Of a stretch of 64,000 nt of DNA, positions 16,268 through 46,630 are shown in pieces. A program made the translations under genes and the position numbers. Within the stretch, counting starts at the first letter, position 1, and each line of letters starts with the position of its first letter. Where the stretch lies: positions 1,240,001-1,304,000 of the forward strand of contig NZ_CP098514.1 in the NCBI RefSeq assembly GCF_023703775.1, written 5' to 3'. The stretch is from Haloplanus sp. GDY1 (GTDB lineage: Archaea; Halobacteriota; Halobacteria; Halobacteriales; Haloferacaceae). Under the pieces are notes generated by a model, which was not told where the DNA came from, did not search any database, and saw only the letters and a program-made list of their open reading frames with translations.

Positions 16268-16462
16268 TCACCCCCCGTCCTCGGTCACGACCGGCGCGTC
16301 GGGCGCGCTCTTCTTGACGCTCTCGATGCCCCGTTTCGCGCCCTGTTTCGACGTGTAGCCCTCGCCGCTGTCGGCGATGATGTTGCCGTTGGACACCACG
16401 AGTCGCCACCGCCACTCGTCGGCCCGGTCCTGGTACAGTTCGAACCTCGGTGCGCGTGGCAT
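16268..16462 (-). CDS. DUF1508 (YegP-like) protein
   Basis: A 64-residue protein matching DUF1508: FELYQDRADEWRWRLVVSNGNIIADSGEGY followed by SKQGAKRGIESVKK, described here as two blocks. The haloarchaeal homologue HVO_2922 has a known small alpha/beta fold and forms a domain-swapped dimer; its role is unknown. The start at 16462 (MPRAPRF) fits the family N terminus. It is divergent from aroE. Confidence 0.85.
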   Translation of the reverse strand: MPRAPRFELYQDRADEWRWRLVVSNGNIIADSGEGYTSKQGAKRGIESVKKSAPDAPVVTEDGG

Positions 16463-16553
16463 ACCGGCCGGGTGTACACGCGGGTGACTGATAAGCACCG
16501 GCGACGGCGGCGGACGCGTGGGCTTTTCCCCCCGCCCGCCCAACCCGCGGTCG

Positions 16554-17372
16554 ATGCACGTCTACGGACTGATCGGCAACCCGGTCGGGCACTCGCTCTC
16601 GCCGCCGATGCACGAGGCGGCCTACCGGGAACTCGGCATGGACGCCAGATACGTCACCTTCGAACCCGACGCCGACGACGTCGCCCGCGCCGTCGACGGG
16701 GCGGCGGCGCTCGGAATCGACGGGCTCAACGTCACCATCCCGTTCAAGCAGGACGTCCTCGAGTTGGTCGAGCCCGACGACCTCGCGGCCCGCATCGGCG
16801 CGGTCAACACCGTCGACTTCTCGACGTCGCCCCCGCGGGGCTACAACACCGACGCCGCGGGGGTGCGCCGCGCCTTCGACCACCACGACGTTCCCCTCTC
16901 GGGGGCGGAGGCCGTCGTCGTCGGCGCCGGGGGCGCCGGCCGCGCCGTCGCCGTCGCGCTCGCGGAGGCCTGCGCGTCGGTCCACGTCGCCAACCGGACC
17001 GTCGACCGGGCGGAGTCGCTCGCGGCCGACGTGCGCGCGGACCGCCCCGCGGCCACGGTGACCGCCGGCGGCCTCGACACGCTCGACGACCGGGTCCCCG
17101 CCGCCGACGTCCTCGTCAACGCGACGAGCGTCGGGATGGAGGAAGACGAGACGCCGGTGCCCGCGCCCCTGCTCCACGGGAATCTGGCGGTCCTCGACGC
17201 GGTGTACTCCCCGGTGGAGACGCGCCTGCTCCGGGAGGCCGCCGCGGCGGGCGCGACCACCATCGACGGCGCCTGGATGCTCCTGTTCCAGGGCGTCGTC
17301 GCCTTCGAGCACTGGACCGGCCGGGACGCCCCGGTCGACGCGATGAACGCCGCCCTCCGGTCGCACCTCTGA
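16554..17372 (+). CDS. aroE: Shikimate dehydrogenase
   Basis: A 272-residue enzyme of the shikimate pathway, reducing 3-dehydroshikimate with NADPH in the cytoplasm. The shikimate-binding serines S14 and S16 (GHSLSPPMH), catalytic K65 in NVTIPFK, D100 in GYNTD, and the nucleotide loop GAGGAG at 124-129 are all present, as are NATSVGM and [10 protein letters not shown] near the C terminus. The ATG at 16554 is the natural start ([10 protein letters not shown]). Other aro genes are not in the window. Confidence 0.95.
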
Positions 17373-17417: not shown

Positions 17418-17933
17418 ATGGGTATCTTGGATACGCTCCTGTCGGTACTCGGACTGGGCGGCTCGTCGTCCGACGACGAGCGGCGGGAGACGACCGTCAG
17501 CGTCGAGCGCGAACGTGCGGAGACCGAGTCGGAGGCGGCCGTCAAGGGAACCGACTCCGTGGGCGACGGCGACGCGGCCGCCAGCGGGGCGGACGCGGCC
17601 GCGTCGACGGACTCGCTCGTCGACGCGGACGACGACGCCGCGGAACCCGCCGAGGCGGCGGGGCCGGGGGGCGACGACGCCGAAACCGAACTCGACACGG
17701 CGGACGCCGAGTCGGTCGGCGAGACGACCGGCGAACACGACGACGACGCGGCGTCGTCCGAATCGGTCGAGGTCATCAAGGGCATCGGTCCCGCGTACGC
17801 CGAACGGCTCGCGAGCGTCGGTATCGAGTCGGTGACGGACCTCGCGGCCGCCGACGCCGAGGAACTCGCGCCGAAGGTCGACCTCTCGGAAAAACGCGTC
17901 GGCCGGTGGATCGACCGCGCGAAGGACCGCTGA
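17418..17933 (+). CDS. Helix-hairpin-helix protein with acidic linker
   Basis: A 171-residue protein. The first 20 residues (MGILDTLLSVLGLGG) could form an amphipathic helix; residues 25-115 are a low-complexity Asp/Glu/Ala region that is surely disordered; the last 55 residues are a helix-hairpin-helix domain (EVIKGIGPAYAERLASVGI, then SVTDLAAADAEELA) of the type that binds DNA non-specifically. Similar haloarchaeal proteins have no defined function. The next gene begins 6 bases downstream, so the two are probably co-translated. Confidence 0.75.
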   Translation: MGILDTLLSVLGLGGSSSDDERRETTVSVERERAETESEAAVKGTDSVGDGDAAASGADAAASTDSLVDADDDAAEPAEAAGPGGDDAETELDTADAESVGETTGEHDDDAASSESVEVIKGIGPAYAERLASVGIESVTDLAAADAEELAPKVDLSEKRVGRWIDRAKDR

Positions 17934-17939
17934 CGCGCG

Positions 17940-18818
17940 ATGCAGCACCACGTCGGCGGTGACCTCGTCGACGCCGACGACGCGACCCTGCCCGTCGACG
18001 ACCGGGCGGTGGCGTTCGGCGACGGCGTGACCGACACCGTCCGCGTCTACGGGGGCGTCCCGTTCGCGTGGCCGGCCCACGCCGACCGCCTGTTCGACGC
18101 CTGTGCGGCCCTCGGGTTCGACCCGGACGTCGACGCCGCCGACCTGCGGTCCCGGATCGAGGCGACGGTGGCCGCCAACGACCTCGACGAGGCGCTGGTC
18201 CGCGTCTCGATCACCCGGGGCCGCGGCGGCGACGGATCGCCCGCGCTCCCCGGGGCCGCCCGGCTTCGCCCCCCGGTCGACCCCGATCCGACGGTCGTCG
18301 TCACCGCCACGCCCGTGCCGGCGTCGACGCCGCCGCTGACCGTCCAGACCGTCCGCACCCGCGCGAGTTCCGGGGACGTACCGACGGCGCTCACGCACGG
18401 CCGCCTCGACGCGGTGCGGGCCCAGGCCGAACTCCGGCGGGCCGCGCCGCCGGACGACGACCCGGCGGACGAGGCGCTGCTCCTCGACGCCGACGGACGG
18501 GTCGTGGGCGGGACGGTCACCGACGTCGCCTTCGTCGACGAGGAGGCCGTCCGGATGCCGGCGCTCGGCGACCGGACGCCGCGGACCGCCACCCGGTCGG
18601 TCGTCCGCGAACTCGCCCGGGACGAGGGACTGCCGGTCGTCGACGGCGCCTACACCCCCGCCGACGTGCGGGAGGCCGCCGAGGCGTTCGTCGCGGACCC
18701 GACCGCGGGGGTCCGCCCCCTGGCCCGCCTCGACGGCGTGCCGGTGGGCGGCGGCCCCGTCACCGACCTGCTCTCGGAACTGTTCGCGGCCCGCGTCGCC
18801 GCGACCCGCGGCCGATGA
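17940..18818 (+). CDS. Class IV aminotransferase fold protein lacking the PLP lysine
   Basis: A 292-residue protein with the class IV aminotransferase layout (DRAVAFGDGVTDTVRVYGG at 21-39, later EALLLDADGRVVGG at 178-191), the family of PabC aminodeoxychorismate lyase and branched-chain aminotransferases. The protein has no lysine anywhere, so the Schiff-base lysine of the family is absent; the corresponding stretch is LTHGRLDAV (151-159). The usual glutamate and asparagine that contact PLP are also changed (GRVVGGTVTDVAF at 186-198). It is therefore either a non-PLP enzyme or a structural relative. It follows the HhH gene by 6 bases. Confidence 0.75.
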   Translation: MQHHVGGDLVDADDATLPVDDRAVAFGDGVTDTVRVYGGVPFAWPAHADRLFDACAALGFDPDVDAADLRSRIEATVAANDLDEALVRVSITRGRGGDGSPALPGAARLRPPVDPDPTVVVTATPVPASTPPLTVQTVRTRASSGDVPTALTHGRLDAVRAQAELRRAAPPDDDPADEALLLDADGRVVGGTVTDVAFVDEEAVRMPALGDRTPRTATRSVVRELARDEGLPVVDGAYTPADVREAAEAFVADPTAGVRPLARLDGVPVGGGPVTDLLSELFAARVAATRGR

Positions 18819-18856: not shown

Positions 18857-19270
18857 ATGGACGCCGACCGACGGATCACGTCGCTGGACGCGGTTCCCGA
18901 CGACACGACCGTTCTCTTCACCCTCCGCCGGCGCGACACCGACGAGCCTCGGGAGGCGGTGCTCGTCCGGACGGCCGACGGCGTGCGCGGCTGGTTGAAC
19001 TACTGTCGACACCTGCTCGACGTGCGACTGGACAAGGGCTCGGGCGCCCCGATGCGCGACGGCGAACTCGTCTGTGCGAACCACGGCGCGTACTTCGAGG
19101 CCGACACCGGGTTCTGTACGTTCGGCCCCTGCGAGGGTGCCACCCTCGAAGCCGTCGACGTCACCGTCGTCGACGGTGACGTCTACCTGACCGACGAGGA
19201 GTACGCCTTCGTCGACACCGGGGCGCTCGACGACGGCGGTCCCGCCTCGTCCTCGGCCGTCGAGTTCTAG
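18857..19270 (+). CDS. Small Rieske [2Fe-2S] protein
   Basis: A 137-residue soluble protein with a Rieske centre: C50-x-H52 and C73-x2-H76 (YCRH and CANH), followed by GAYFEADTGFCTFGPCEG, with two extra cysteines. Such stand-alone Rieske ferredoxins pass electrons to oxygenases or nitrite-reductase-like partners. The partner is not in the window neighbourhood, although a cytochrome P450 lies 35 kb away. No membrane anchor. Its own TATA box makes it an independent unit. Confidence 0.85.
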   Translation: MDADRRITSLDAVPDDTTVLFTLRRRDTDEPREAVLVRTADGVRGWLNYCRHLLDVRLDKGSGAPMRDGELVCANHGAYFEADTGFCTFGPCEGATLEAVDVTVVDGDVYLTDEEYAFVDTGALDDGGPASSSAVEF

Positions 19271-19866: not shown

Positions 19867-21096
19867 ATGCCCTCCATCACACGCCGCCACCTGCTCGGCG
19901 GCGCCGCCGCCGTCGGGGCCGGCGGCTACGGCACCTACCGCCTGTACCGCGGGACGGTCGACGCCGCGTTCGAAACCTGGACCCCCGAGCCCGGGACGTG
20001 GCCGCTCCGCCGTTACGACCCCGCGAACACCGCCCACAACCCGAACGCGTCGCCGCCGCGCGAGCGGCCCTCGGTCCGCGAACTCGCCTCGATACCGTCC
20101 GCCGCCAGGTACCCCTCGGTCCCGCCGCTCGTCGGCCCGGACCACGTCGTCGTCTACGGATCGGGGCTCGCGGCCTCCCCCCGCGACGGCGGGCCGGCGG
20201 CGGGGACCGTCGAGGCCGCGACGCCCCGCGCCGGGTTCGGCCCCGACGGCCGCCTCCACACGGTCAGCCTCGAATCGGGTACCGCCACCGACCCCGCGGC
20301 CGTCGTCGGCTACGCCACCGGCGGCCTGCGCGAAGCGTACCGCACGCCGGTCGGCGCCGACAACCCACGAGGACTGATCGTCGGGGCGCGGGAGGTGTAT
20401 CTCGGATCGACGGGCGGGACGCTCCGGAGCCTCGGCGTCGACGGCGGGCGACGCTGGCGGGCCGACGGCACGATGCCCGCCCTCGTCGACGGCCGACTGT
20501 ACGCCGCCGGCGCCCCCCTCGACGGCACCGTCGCCTACGGCCGGCGAACGGGGCGGGACCGCTACCTCTACGCCGACCCCGAACGGGCCTGGAGCGCCGG
20601 TCCCGTCGACGGCTTCGTCCACGCTCCCGCCGTCGCCGACGGCCGCCTCGTGCAGGGCACCTACGCCGAGGGCGGCGGCGTCGTCGCCGCCGTCGACGCC
20701 GGGACCGGCGCCCGCCTCTGGGAGCCCCGCCGCCTGGGCCAGGACGTCGTCACCCCCGCCGTCGTCGCGGACCGCGGCTACGCGGCGGTCGGCACCGACG
20801 ACGGGCGGGCCGGCCGCGTCGTCGCCCTCGACCTCGAAACCGGCGCCACCGTCTGGGACGACGGCGTCGAGTGGCACGCCGTCGCGCCCGCCGTCGCCGG
20901 GGACACCCTCGTCGTCGCCGGCGAACGGGTGGCGGGCGGCGAGCGGACCGCGGGAGTGGTGCGTGCCTACGACCGCCACGCGGGCGACCGGCTGTGGACC
21001 CACACCGTCCGGACGAGGCGGGGGGTCGGCGGGGTGGCGCTCGTCGGTGACCGCGTGGTGGTCGCCGCGGGCACGTCGGTGTACGAGTTGTCGTAG
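19867..21096 (+). CDS. Tat-exported PQQ-like beta-propeller protein
   Basis: A 409-residue exported protein. The N terminus has a twin-arginine motif RRHLLGG (residues 6-12) and a hydrophobic stretch. The mature part begins with the WPLRRYDPANTAHNPNA block typical of PQQ/BamB-like propellers and continues with blades ending in patterns such as VVALDLETGATVWDDG and VVRAYDRHAGDRLWTHT. No quinoprotein catalytic residues were identified, so it is more likely a binding or scaffold propeller outside the cell. Unlike the kinases at 57.6-62.4 kb it has no membrane span or kinase domain. Confidence 0.8.
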   Translation: MPSITRRHLLGGAAAVGAGGYGTYRLYRGTVDAAFETWTPEPGTWPLRRYDPANTAHNPNASPPRERPSVRELASIPSAARYPSVPPLVGPDHVVVYGSGLAASPRDGGPAAGTVEAATPRAGFGPDGRLHTVSLESGTATDPAAVVGYATGGLREAYRTPVGADNPRGLIVGAREVYLGSTGGTLRSLGVDGGRRWRADGTMPALVDGRLYAAGAPLDGTVAYGRRTGRDRYLYADPERAWSAGPVDGFVHAPAVADGRLVQGTYAEGGGVVAAVDAGTGARLWEPRRLGQDVVTPAVVADRGYAAVGTDDGRAGRVVALDLETGATVWDDGVEWHAVAPAVAGDTLVVAGERVAGGERTAGVVRAYDRHAGDRLWTHTVRTRRGVGGVALVGDRVVVAAGTSVYELS

Positions 21097-44914: not shown

Positions 44915-45804
44915 TGTCGGATCACGCCGACGACCACCCGGCGTTCGCGTGGCGACGCCCCGACGTGTCGTGGCGCCGGCGGCTCGACGATCTGCTCCCC
45001 TGGCTGCTCAGCGGCCCGCTCGTGGCGCTGTACGCCCTCTTTCTCGGCCTGCCGCTGCTCAGATTGGTCCGGCTGAGCCTCGACGACGAGGCGTGGATCG
45101 GCGCGAACTACGCCGCCGTGTTCCTCGACCCCACCTACCGGACGGCGCTCGTCACCAGCCTCGCCATCGCGGCTCTCGTCACCGCCGTCGCCGTCGTCCT
45201 CGGTCTGTTCATGGCGTATTTCATCGCCCGGCGGGACCTGCCGGGCGAGCGGGTCATCGTGGCCGTCATCTCGTTTCCCATCAGCCTCCCCGGCATCCTC
45301 GTCGCGTGGGCGGTCATCGTTCTCGTTGGCCGGACGGGCGTGCTGACGCGGGCGGCCGCGGCCGTGACAGGCGGCGACCCGTCGGGGTACAGCGTCGCGT
45401 TCGGCCTCGTCGGACTTCTCATCGGCTACGTCTACTTCACGCTCCCCCGGACGACGATGTCGCTCGTCGGCGCTATCGAGAAGGTGGACCCGACCGTCGA
45501 GGAGGCGGCGCGGTCACTCGGCGCGTCGCCCCGACAGACGTTCCGCCACGTCACCCTTCCGGCCATCCTTCCGGGCATCGCCTCCGCCGTCGTCCTGGCG
45601 TTCAGCGTCTCGATGGCCGCCTTCGGGACGGCGCTCCTCCTCGCCAGCGGCACCGTCGACATCCTCCCGCTGAAGATATACAGCGTCATCCTCGGGACGT
45701 ACGACTACGGCGCCGGATCCGCGATGGCCATCGTCCTCACGGCCATCACGGTGGGGGTCATCTACGGCTACGCGCGGCTGTTCGGAGGGGCGGTGTATGA
45801 GTGA
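44914..45804 (+). CDS. ABC transporter permease
   Basis: A 296-residue inner-membrane permease with six spans; the coupling-loop EAA motif is EEAARSLGASPRQTFRHVTLP (about 191-211; key EAA...G residues present). Its order after the binding protein and before a second permease is typical of spermidine/iron/phosphonate importers with two unlike permeases. It overlaps the previous stop by one base and the next gene by 8 bases. Confidence 0.88.
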   Translation: MSDHADDHPAFAWRRPDVSWRRRLDDLLPWLLSGPLVALYALFLGLPLLRLVRLSLDDEAWIGANYAAVFLDPTYRTALVTSLAIAALVTAVAVVLGLFMAYFIARRDLPGERVIVAVISFPISLPGILVAWAVIVLVGRTGVLTRAAAAVTGGDPSGYSVAFGLVGLLIGYVYFTLPRTTMSLVGAIEKVDPTVEEAARSLGASPRQTFRHVTLPAILPGIASAVVLAFSVSMAAFGTALLLASGTVDILPLKIYSVILGTYDYGAGSAMAIVLTAITVGVIYGYARLFGGAVYE

Positions 45805-46630
45805 GCGATCCCGTCGCGGGCAGTCGGTCGACGTGGGGTTGGCGGCGTTTTACGTCGTCTGTATCGCCGTCCTCGCGTTCATCCTGTTGCCCCTCCTGAC
45901 CATCCTGTTTCACTCGGTCGGCGGGTCGCTCTCCGGGCGATCACTCGGGTCGCTGACGCTCGCTCACTACGCCGGCGCCCTGGCCACCAACCTCGACCCG
46001 CTGCTGTTGAGCCTGCAGGTCGCACTCCTCACCACCGTCGTCGCGACCCTCGTCGGCGTACCAGCGGGGTACACGCTGGTCCGCTACGACTTCGCGTTCG
46101 TCGACCTGCTGCGGGAACTAACCGTCCTCCCGATGGCGATTCCGGGGATCGTCGTCGGCATCGGCATCGTCCGGGTGTGGGGAGTGCCCCGGTTCGGGGT
46201 CGACCTCGCCGGATCGACGGCGCTGATCGCGTGTGCGCACGTCCTGTTTACCGTCCCCTTCATCGTCCAAACGACCATGTCGACGCTCGAATCCATCGAC
46301 TACCGACGGCTAGAAGAGAGCGCCCGCGCCCTCGGAGCGGGCTGGGTCGAGACGTTCCTGTACGTCGTCGTTCCGAACATCTATCGCGGCGTCGTGGCAG
46401 GCGCGATAATGGTGTTCGCGCTGTCGATGGGCGAGTTCAACATCACGTTCTTCATCTACGCGACGGGGAACGCGACGCTCCCCATCGCCCTGTTCGGCGG
46501 GTTCAGAACCGCGAGCGTGGGACAGGCGAGCGCGCTCGCCTCGCTGTTCGTGGGCATCGTCGTCCTGTCGCTCGTCGTGTTCCAGATGGTGTCCGACCAG
46601 CGGATCCACGAGACGGGAGGGAACGCGTGA
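45797..46630 (+). CDS. ABC transporter permease
   Basis: A 277-residue second permease with six spans and the EAA loop EESARALGAGWVETFLYVVVP (about 174-194). The N terminus is short and positively charged (MSERSRRGQS), consistent with the positive-inside rule. GTGA overlap with the ATPase gene means translation is coupled. It forms a heterodimeric channel with the preceding permease. Confidence 0.88.
   Translation: MSERSRRGQSVDVGLAAFYVVCIAVLAFILLPLLTILFHSVGGSLSGRSLGSLTLAHYAGALATNLDPLLLSLQVALLTTVVATLVGVPAGYTLVRYDFAFVDLLRELTVLPMAIPGIVVGIGIVRVWGVPRFGVDLAGSTALIACAHVLFTVPFIVQTTMSTLESIDYRRLEESARALGAGWVETFLYVVVPNIYRGVVAGAIMVFALSMGEFNITFFIYATGNATLPIALFGGFRTASVGQASALASLFVGIVVLSLVVFQMVSDQRIHETGGNA

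Follow-up and report, generated by a model that had tools for sequence, protein, structure and literature searches.

Among described systems, the closest to the protein considered here is PabC, represented by the Pseudomonas enzyme PaPabC (2y4r). Passages of PMC3174152 set out the roles of its PLP-site residues, including the phosphate-loop residue Gly199, and hold that any substitution of this glycine would clash with the phosphate of PLP. In haloarchaea, HVO_0708, HVO_0709 and HVO_0710 are the candidates for pabC, pabA and pabB, respectively, in a pathway proposal without experimental confirmation, and the assignment of haloarchaeal PabC as an aminodeoxychorismate lyase is a prediction (PMC8305020, in part). 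A noncatalytic relative of a PLP enzyme is found in the tryptophan branch of eudicots, where TSB-like, a pseudoenzyme of the tryptophan synthase beta subunit, has two essential residues changed and a non-catalytic role (part of PMC12727527). Within class IV itself, an aminotransferase-like protein of Variovorax paradoxus (7z79) naturally carries Asn at the Schiff-base position, and an entry titled as the N174K mutant of this protein (9j32) has Lys there. The literature searched yielded no paper describing the 7z79 protein and, among the matches listed, no description of a lysine-less PabC.

The window analyzed here, a stretch of 64,000 nucleotides from Haloplanus sp. GDY1 (contig NZ_CP098514.1, positions 1,240,001 to 1,304,000), holds a gene for a 292-residue protein that invites comparison with these systems (Table 1). 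It resembles PabC in its fold, in its place in the tree and in occupying the ancestral pabC locus, and it keeps His47, Arg50 and Arg219. It differs from PabC in that the Lys, Glu, Asn, Tyr and phosphate-loop Gly of the cofactor site are all replaced; moreover, its locus is without pabB and pabA, and the genome has a second, true PabC. Identity to the aligned haloarchaeal homologues outside its own clade, IlvE aside, is 40–49%. The Variovorax protein 7z79, compared at the Schiff-base position only, is among its best sequence and fold matches, but is bacterial and 29–30% identical. Archaeal branched-chain aminotransferases (BCATs) 5mqz and 5e25 are the top structural matches (Z 30.8–30.9, 275 residues), yet these share 27% identity with it and are, by title, active PLP enzymes; the window genome also has its own IlvE-like gene. 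TSB-like belongs to a different PLP fold family, is a plant protein and has a known partner, whereas the lysine-less proteins of one haloarchaeal group described below (g14) are without a catalytic paralogue. EnfR was considered as a possible regulator made from a lyase fragment and was rejected; it resembles only part of PabC.

Table 1. Features of the locus and codons of cofactor-site positions, in window coordinates
Feature	Position	Strand	Remarks
Lysine-less class IV protein, very likely a PabC-derived pseudoenzyme	17940..18818	+	292 aa; ATG start, stop 18816-18818
Leu151 codon (CTC), position of the PLP Schiff-base Lys	18390..18392	+	K in the 67 canonical rows, which were selected so
Arg155 codon, position of the active-site Tyr (KTHNY)	18402..18404	+	Y in 97% of canonical rows
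Gly190 codon, position of the Glu contacting PLP N1	18507..18509	+	G in 8 and S in 2 of 10 Haloplanus proteins
Asp195 codon, position of the cofactor-site Asn	18522..18524	+	N in 99% of canonical rows; D in 10/10 Haloplanus
Thr216 codon, position of the phosphate-loop Gly (PaPabC Gly199)	18585..18587	+	G in 100% of canonical rows; T in 10/10 Haloplanus
AroE, shikimate dehydrogenase, upstream	16554..17372	+	NF001319 274.4 bits, cut-off 252; synteny
HhH-domain protein, 171 aa, upstream	17418..17933	+	HHH_5 51 bits; stop 6 bases before the start of the lysine-less gene
Junction, site of pabB and pabA in the ancestral order	17934..17939	+	L048 (G042) vs L034
Small Rieske-type protein, 137 aa, downstream	18857..19270	+	20.6 bits, cut-off 20.3; synteny

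Fold and cofactor site of the lysine-free protein

An earlier note on this DNA had read the protein as a class IV aminotransferase fold lacking every lysine, the Schiff-base residue included, and with the nearby Glu and Asn altered as well. Each of these readings holds. The Pfam family Aminotran_4 matches residues 29–263 at 112.5 bits (cut-off 28.5), the predicted structure has a pLDDT of 87.9 and a pTM of 0.82, and the whole-length fold matches of this model in the PDB are class IV enzymes, the best being the archaeal BCAT 5mqz (rmsd 2.2), with Pseudomonas PabC at Z 28.2. Profile and structure both place the protein in fold type IV, and the predicted model and its class IV matches reject the possibility of another fold. 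A model of the lysine-less protein of genome G136 (pLDDT 84.3, pTM 0.84) shows a similar order of elements. NCBIfam returned 17 matches, all under their respective cut-offs, and the PabC equivalogs scored well below theirs (NF004761, 81.7 bits versus 260; TIGR03461, 78.2 versus 176.85), a comparison made without scores for canonical haloarchaeal PabC as a control.

None of the 292 residues is lysine. This absence, which the earlier note had presented as the oddity, is real, but it does not in itself set the protein apart: among 49 gene-like ORFs in the window, 5 are lysine-free, the present one counted (mean Lys content, 1.21%). Two further lysine-free gene-like ORFs longer than 250 aa lie at 19867-21096 and 45797-46627. 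Since such proteins are not rare in the window, what is anomalous is that the Schiff-base position has been lost along with other PLP-site residues. A substitute lysine nearby is rejected, because the protein has no Lys anywhere. Sequencing error, which had been named as something that could undo the observation, is ruled out as well: all ten Haloplanus orthologues are lysine-free, and their matches contain no internal stops.

We aligned 94 haloarchaeal homologues, taking as canonical the 67 rows without an observed loss of Lys or Glu. Leu151 falls in the Lys column, and Gly190 and Asp195 occupy the Glu and Asn positions. Among the ten Haloplanus proteins, position 151 is variable (L in four, V in two, A in three, T in one). 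The Tyr position, 155, is Arg in all ten and in all seven g14 lysine-less proteins, and Arg is found there also in G279 and G349, making four lineages. This recurrent change may mean that the cleft has acquired a new use common to these lineages, or it may be the product of relaxed constraint and mutation toward GC; it raises GC, as does the recurrent change of Glu to Gly, and mutation bias could be the cause of both. Residue 195 is D, T or S depending on the lysine-less lineage, and residue 216 is T, R (as in the g14 set) or the retained G. Arg50 and Arg219 are present in all ten Haloplanus proteins. Residue 33, at the position of the catalytic Thr29 of PaPabC, is Thr in the window protein and Pro in 6 of 10 orthologues, and 106 of the 292 columns are invariant among the ten. 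Judged against PabC, the window protein is without the Schiff-base Lys, the acidic residue at PLP N1 and the phosphate-loop Gly; the Schiff-base Lys of the BCAT and D-amino acid (DAAT) transaminases is likewise absent.

Genomic context and descent of the gene

Of 23 genera fetched, 15 show the order aroE-HhH-pabB-pabA-pabC; in 12 of the 15, the Rieske gene comes next in the same orientation. One genome with the ancestral order (G042) has the same further neighbors as the window. In all ten Haloplanus carriers, the order is aroE-HhH-X-Rieske, where X is the lysine-less gene. It follows from the order in those 15 genera that the window gene is a pabC stranded at the ancestral aroE-hhH-(pabB-pabA)-pabC-Rieske locus after pabBA departed. 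Retention in an operon with the HhH protein, as the earlier note proposed, fits this conserved gene order. An HhH gene beside aroE is also present in 9 of 11 loci (L236-L246) that lack a locus PabC, being absent in G011 and G056, and therefore HhH does not require the gene. At the aroE end, the listed ORF begins at 16518, and the in-frame ATG at 16554 looks the likelier start; a 91-aa ORF on the opposite strand (16268-16543) opposes aroE and overlaps its listed start.

Three Aminotran_4 genes are found in the window genome: the lysine-less one, an IlvE-like one, and a Lys-bearing PabC in a pabB-pabA-pabC run. PabB and a Lys-bearing PabC are encoded elsewhere in all 12 Haloplanus genomes. In the three that were fetched (G000, G096, G101), pabA lies between pabB and pabC, and in the other nine the pabB-pabC gap of 566–578 bases would accommodate a pabA of equal size. 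The lysine-less protein of Haloplanus is an extra copy beside true PabC. A profile built from the ten Haloplanus proteins (A1) scores 494–529 bits with these same proteins, values that are high partly by construction; the next best score in the genus is 243 bits, and the rest of the 391 class genomes reach 290 bits at most. The gene itself is present in 10 of 12 Haloplanus genomes. In the remaining two, G096 and G101, HhH directly adjoins Rieske. Because the gene is absent from these two, and from 12 of 36 genomes of the class that lack PabB (see below), it is dispensable rather than essential. One genome, G020, has two PabC proteins, both with Lys (G020:C1:1477150 and G020:C1:1068988), a state that is possibly a picture of Haloplanus before the locus copy lost its cofactor site.

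In trees, the window protein groups with haloarchaeal PabC, apart from IlvE, indicating common descent with the former. The ten Haloplanus proteins form one clade (support 100/100). The g14 lysine-less proteins are nested within g14 PabC (100/100), beside G316, which retains both Lys and pabBA. On the tree of 94 proteins, loss of Lys requires five events, or five to six across bootstrap trees; for Glu, the state changes eight times. A single origin for all lysine-less proteins is rejected, since the tree needs five events, although an AU test on a smaller tree does not reject a single clade of Haloplanus and g14 (P = 0.37). G349 and Haloplanus are long branches that were flagged by the program as possibly falsely joined. 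Taking the AU result and this flag together, we put the number of events at five or six. By inspection, a C-terminal sequence is common to the g14 lysine-less proteins and G316 and not shared by Haloplanus, which speaks for separate origins of the Haloplanus and g14 losses.

Losses across the class and selection on the protein

The earlier note had called for a survey of whether the lysine is lost in all haloarchaeal orthologues. It is not: many orthologues keep it, and the losses amount to about five events. Our survey covered 391 genomes of class Halobacteria. Best PabB E-values fall into two groups, 6.2e-82 or stronger and 4.7e-64 or weaker, and genomes in the latter group, at the level of TrpE, were taken as lacking PabB. 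There are 36 of these, a number that was read off result tables, as was that of the 40 genomes without the KTHNYL pattern. A PabC homologue is retained in 24 of the 36. In the other 12, the family profile found nothing better than 2e-14. Some of the absences scored in the survey may be false, namely those in G370, where the contig ends after HhH, in G354 (88% complete) and in G378 (90%).

Among the 24 retained homologues, 11 have lost the Lys: seven in g14 (T or A), G068 (Q), G032 (R), G279 (L) and G349 (S). Six have lost the Glu and kept the Lys (G in G191, G207, G296, G274 and G019; Q in G227). Both residues are kept in the remaining seven (G033, G053, G087, G027, G354, G378, G379), of which G053 is without the Tyr and Asn and four (G354, G379, G087, G027) still have pabA beside pabC. 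In G027, the pabC gene (L195/L200, G027:C1:913157-914007) gives two overlapping matches, one with an internal TGA, suggestive of a frameshift; the PabC is otherwise canonical. Of the 24, 19 have the gene next to HhH at a locus where pabBA was not detected, and 17 of these 19 have lost Lys or Glu. All 25 PabB-less genomes tested have a Pterin_bind gene, assigned by name to the dihydropteroate synthase family, at about 250–274 bits.

Genomes with PabB show a different pattern. A Lys-bearing PabC is present in 355 of 355 (344 by KTHNYL codon pattern and 11 by translation), a count of presence that leaves room for a further, lysine-less paralogue in such genomes. Loss of Lys in 11 of 24 PabB-less genomes, versus 0 of 355 PabB-containing genomes without a Lys-bearing PabC, gives P = 5e-15 (Fisher), with related genomes counted as independent. 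Outside Haloplanus, among the genomes examined, Lys loss is confined to those without PabB. In the six g14 lysine-less genomes tested, the only other family member is IlvE, with no other PabC. G005, G022 and G175 have PabB elsewhere and a single PabC, and the Lys is kept. For Glu, the state in genomes with PabB was read in the 11 that were translated. Three genomes of family f11 with a distant PabB (G285, G336 and G412, excluded from the tree) carry Ser in PabC where the Glu would stand, which counts against a strict link between loss of Glu and loss of PabB.

To assess selection, we compared amino-acid differences with a simple neutral (F81-like) simulation calibrated on four-fold sites (200 runs). 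Divergence relative to neutral is 0.23–0.42 in five Haloplanus pairs and 0.22–0.34 in five g14 pairs, and all ten pairs lie under the lowest of the 200 simulations. The corresponding ratios for PabC are 0.16–0.29 in Haloplanus (5 pairs) and 0.11–0.18 in g14 (4 pairs); other controls gave 0.13–0.29 (AroE, 10 pairs), 0.17–0.27 (glycosyltransferase, 5 pairs) and 0.05–0.30 (Rieske protein, 5 pairs). Given divergence at 0.22–0.42 of neutral in ten pairs, the lysine-less proteins are under purifying selection, which is clearly present yet generally weaker than that acting on PabC (in four of five Haloplanus pairs). The weaker constraint implies that part of the change is relaxed constraint.

Changes at the cofactor site were then set against those elsewhere in the protein. 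Of 73 columns conserved in at least 97% of canonical rows, 15 belong to the PLP site, mapped from PaPabC numbering with four anchors, and 58 do not. In Haloplanus, 8 of the 15 PLP-site columns are changed versus 12 of the 58 others (P = 0.016); the corresponding numbers for g14 are 8 of 15 and 3 of 58 (P = 6e-5), and P values for G279, G349, G068 and G032 range from 7e-5 to 0.024. This test is biased, because the lineages were chosen for their loss of Lys. Once the columns for Lys and Glu are excluded, P becomes 0.064 for Haloplanus, 0.0008 for g14, 0.0007 for G279, 0.084 for G349, 0.070 for G068 and 0.009 for G032. The lean of changes toward the PLP site is firm in g14, G279 and G032 and no more than suggestive in Haloplanus, G349 and G068.

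Roles considered for the retained protein

Fold, gene order and selection have been kept, but the cofactor site has been lost, and hence a second, PLP-independent role is the simplest reading. The three possibilities raised in the earlier note, a non-PLP enzyme, a binding protein or a pseudo-enzyme, find support in the fold kept in the model, the missing PLP-site residues and the purifying selection. We consider it very likely that the protein is a pseudoenzyme under selection, and probable that it derives from PabC and has been retained for such a second role. Events would have begun with the PabC of the ancestral locus losing its pabB and pabA neighbors. The window protein would be unable to bind PLP as an internal aldimine, presumably has neither lyase nor transaminase activity, and would have been kept at the locus for its PLP-independent function. 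The likeliest form of that function would be a dimeric protein of the aroE/HhH operon that serves in binding or as a scaffold. In such a protein, the vacated cleft, where Arg50, Arg155 and Arg219 are kept or newly fixed, might bind an anionic metabolite, for example a chorismate-type compound or pABA. Ligand binding or scaffolding as the specific role is a tentative suggestion.

Other explanations must be weighed against this one. One is that the protein is an enzyme that has newly acquired a PLP-independent reaction in the old cleft. The fixation of R155, D195 and T216 and the retention of Arg50 and Arg219 in all ten Haloplanus proteins would fit, as would the selection on the gene, but the lineage-specific residues at 195 (D, T, S) and 216 (T, R, G) are unlike one new catalytic site, and position 151 varies; we regard a new enzyme as unlikely. 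The protein might instead act on the true PabC of the same cell, as a non-catalytic heterodimer partner or regulator, in the manner of plant TSB-like on TSA. PabC is a dimer with its active site near the interface (passages of PMC3174152), a pseudoenzyme partner has precedent in another PLP family (part of PMC12727527), and all 12 Haloplanus genomes have a true PabC. However, two of these genomes manage without the gene, and such a role is not a general explanation, because the g14 genomes hold no other PabC. A partner role is possible in Haloplanus and, taken overall, improbable.

Retention of PLP or PMP without a Schiff base, used in an altered way, draws on the existence of fold IV proteins without the Lys (Asn in 7z79, with Lys in 9j32) and on the retained Arg50, His47 and Arg219. 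Against it, four further cofactor-site residues are missing (the Glu at PLP N1, the Asn, the Tyr and the phosphate-loop Gly), and the residue in place of this Gly, Thr here and Arg in g14, would be expected to clash with the PLP phosphate (as stated in part of PMC3174152); we find this reading very hard to credit. Finally, the gene could be a decaying relic whose frame is still open by chance in GC-rich DNA. At the given composition, simulations yield merely 0.4–1.5 in-frame stops per pair, such that the open frame alone is weak evidence of function. The absence of the gene from some Haloplanus and PabB-less genomes, and selection mostly weaker than on PabC, are also in keeping with decay. Nevertheless, every pair tested falls below all simulations, and more than a hundred columns are invariant in ten genomes. 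These data reject pseudogene decay as far as F81-like simulations hold, and leave a relic quite improbable.

With a retained PabC-derived pseudoenzyme as the preferred reading, the class-wide pattern can be considered. PabC of the aroE-HhH locus might have, throughout the class, a second role that needs a folded protein and not PLP, an idea we find plausible while stopping short of calling it probable. Loss or relocation of pabBA would then free the copy from pABA chemistry, and the cofactor site would be repeatedly stripped while the protein was kept. If this is true, PabC would be a bifunctional housekeeping protein with an overlooked non-catalytic half.

Pseudoenzymes and the class IV fold were already known; what is new is that PabC has repeatedly undergone such a conversion, tied to this locus, once pabBA had been lost. 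One enzyme family has become a pseudoenzyme about five times in one archaeal class, each time at pabC beside the HhH gene. Labels of aminotransferase or PabC given to such genes by automatic annotation may be mistaken, and haloarchaea that lack PabB and have a Pterin_bind gene raise the question of where their pABA comes from. The recurrent losses amount to a natural experiment separating the catalytic from the non-catalytic function of a folate enzyme, and genetically tractable haloarchaea are suited to testing it.
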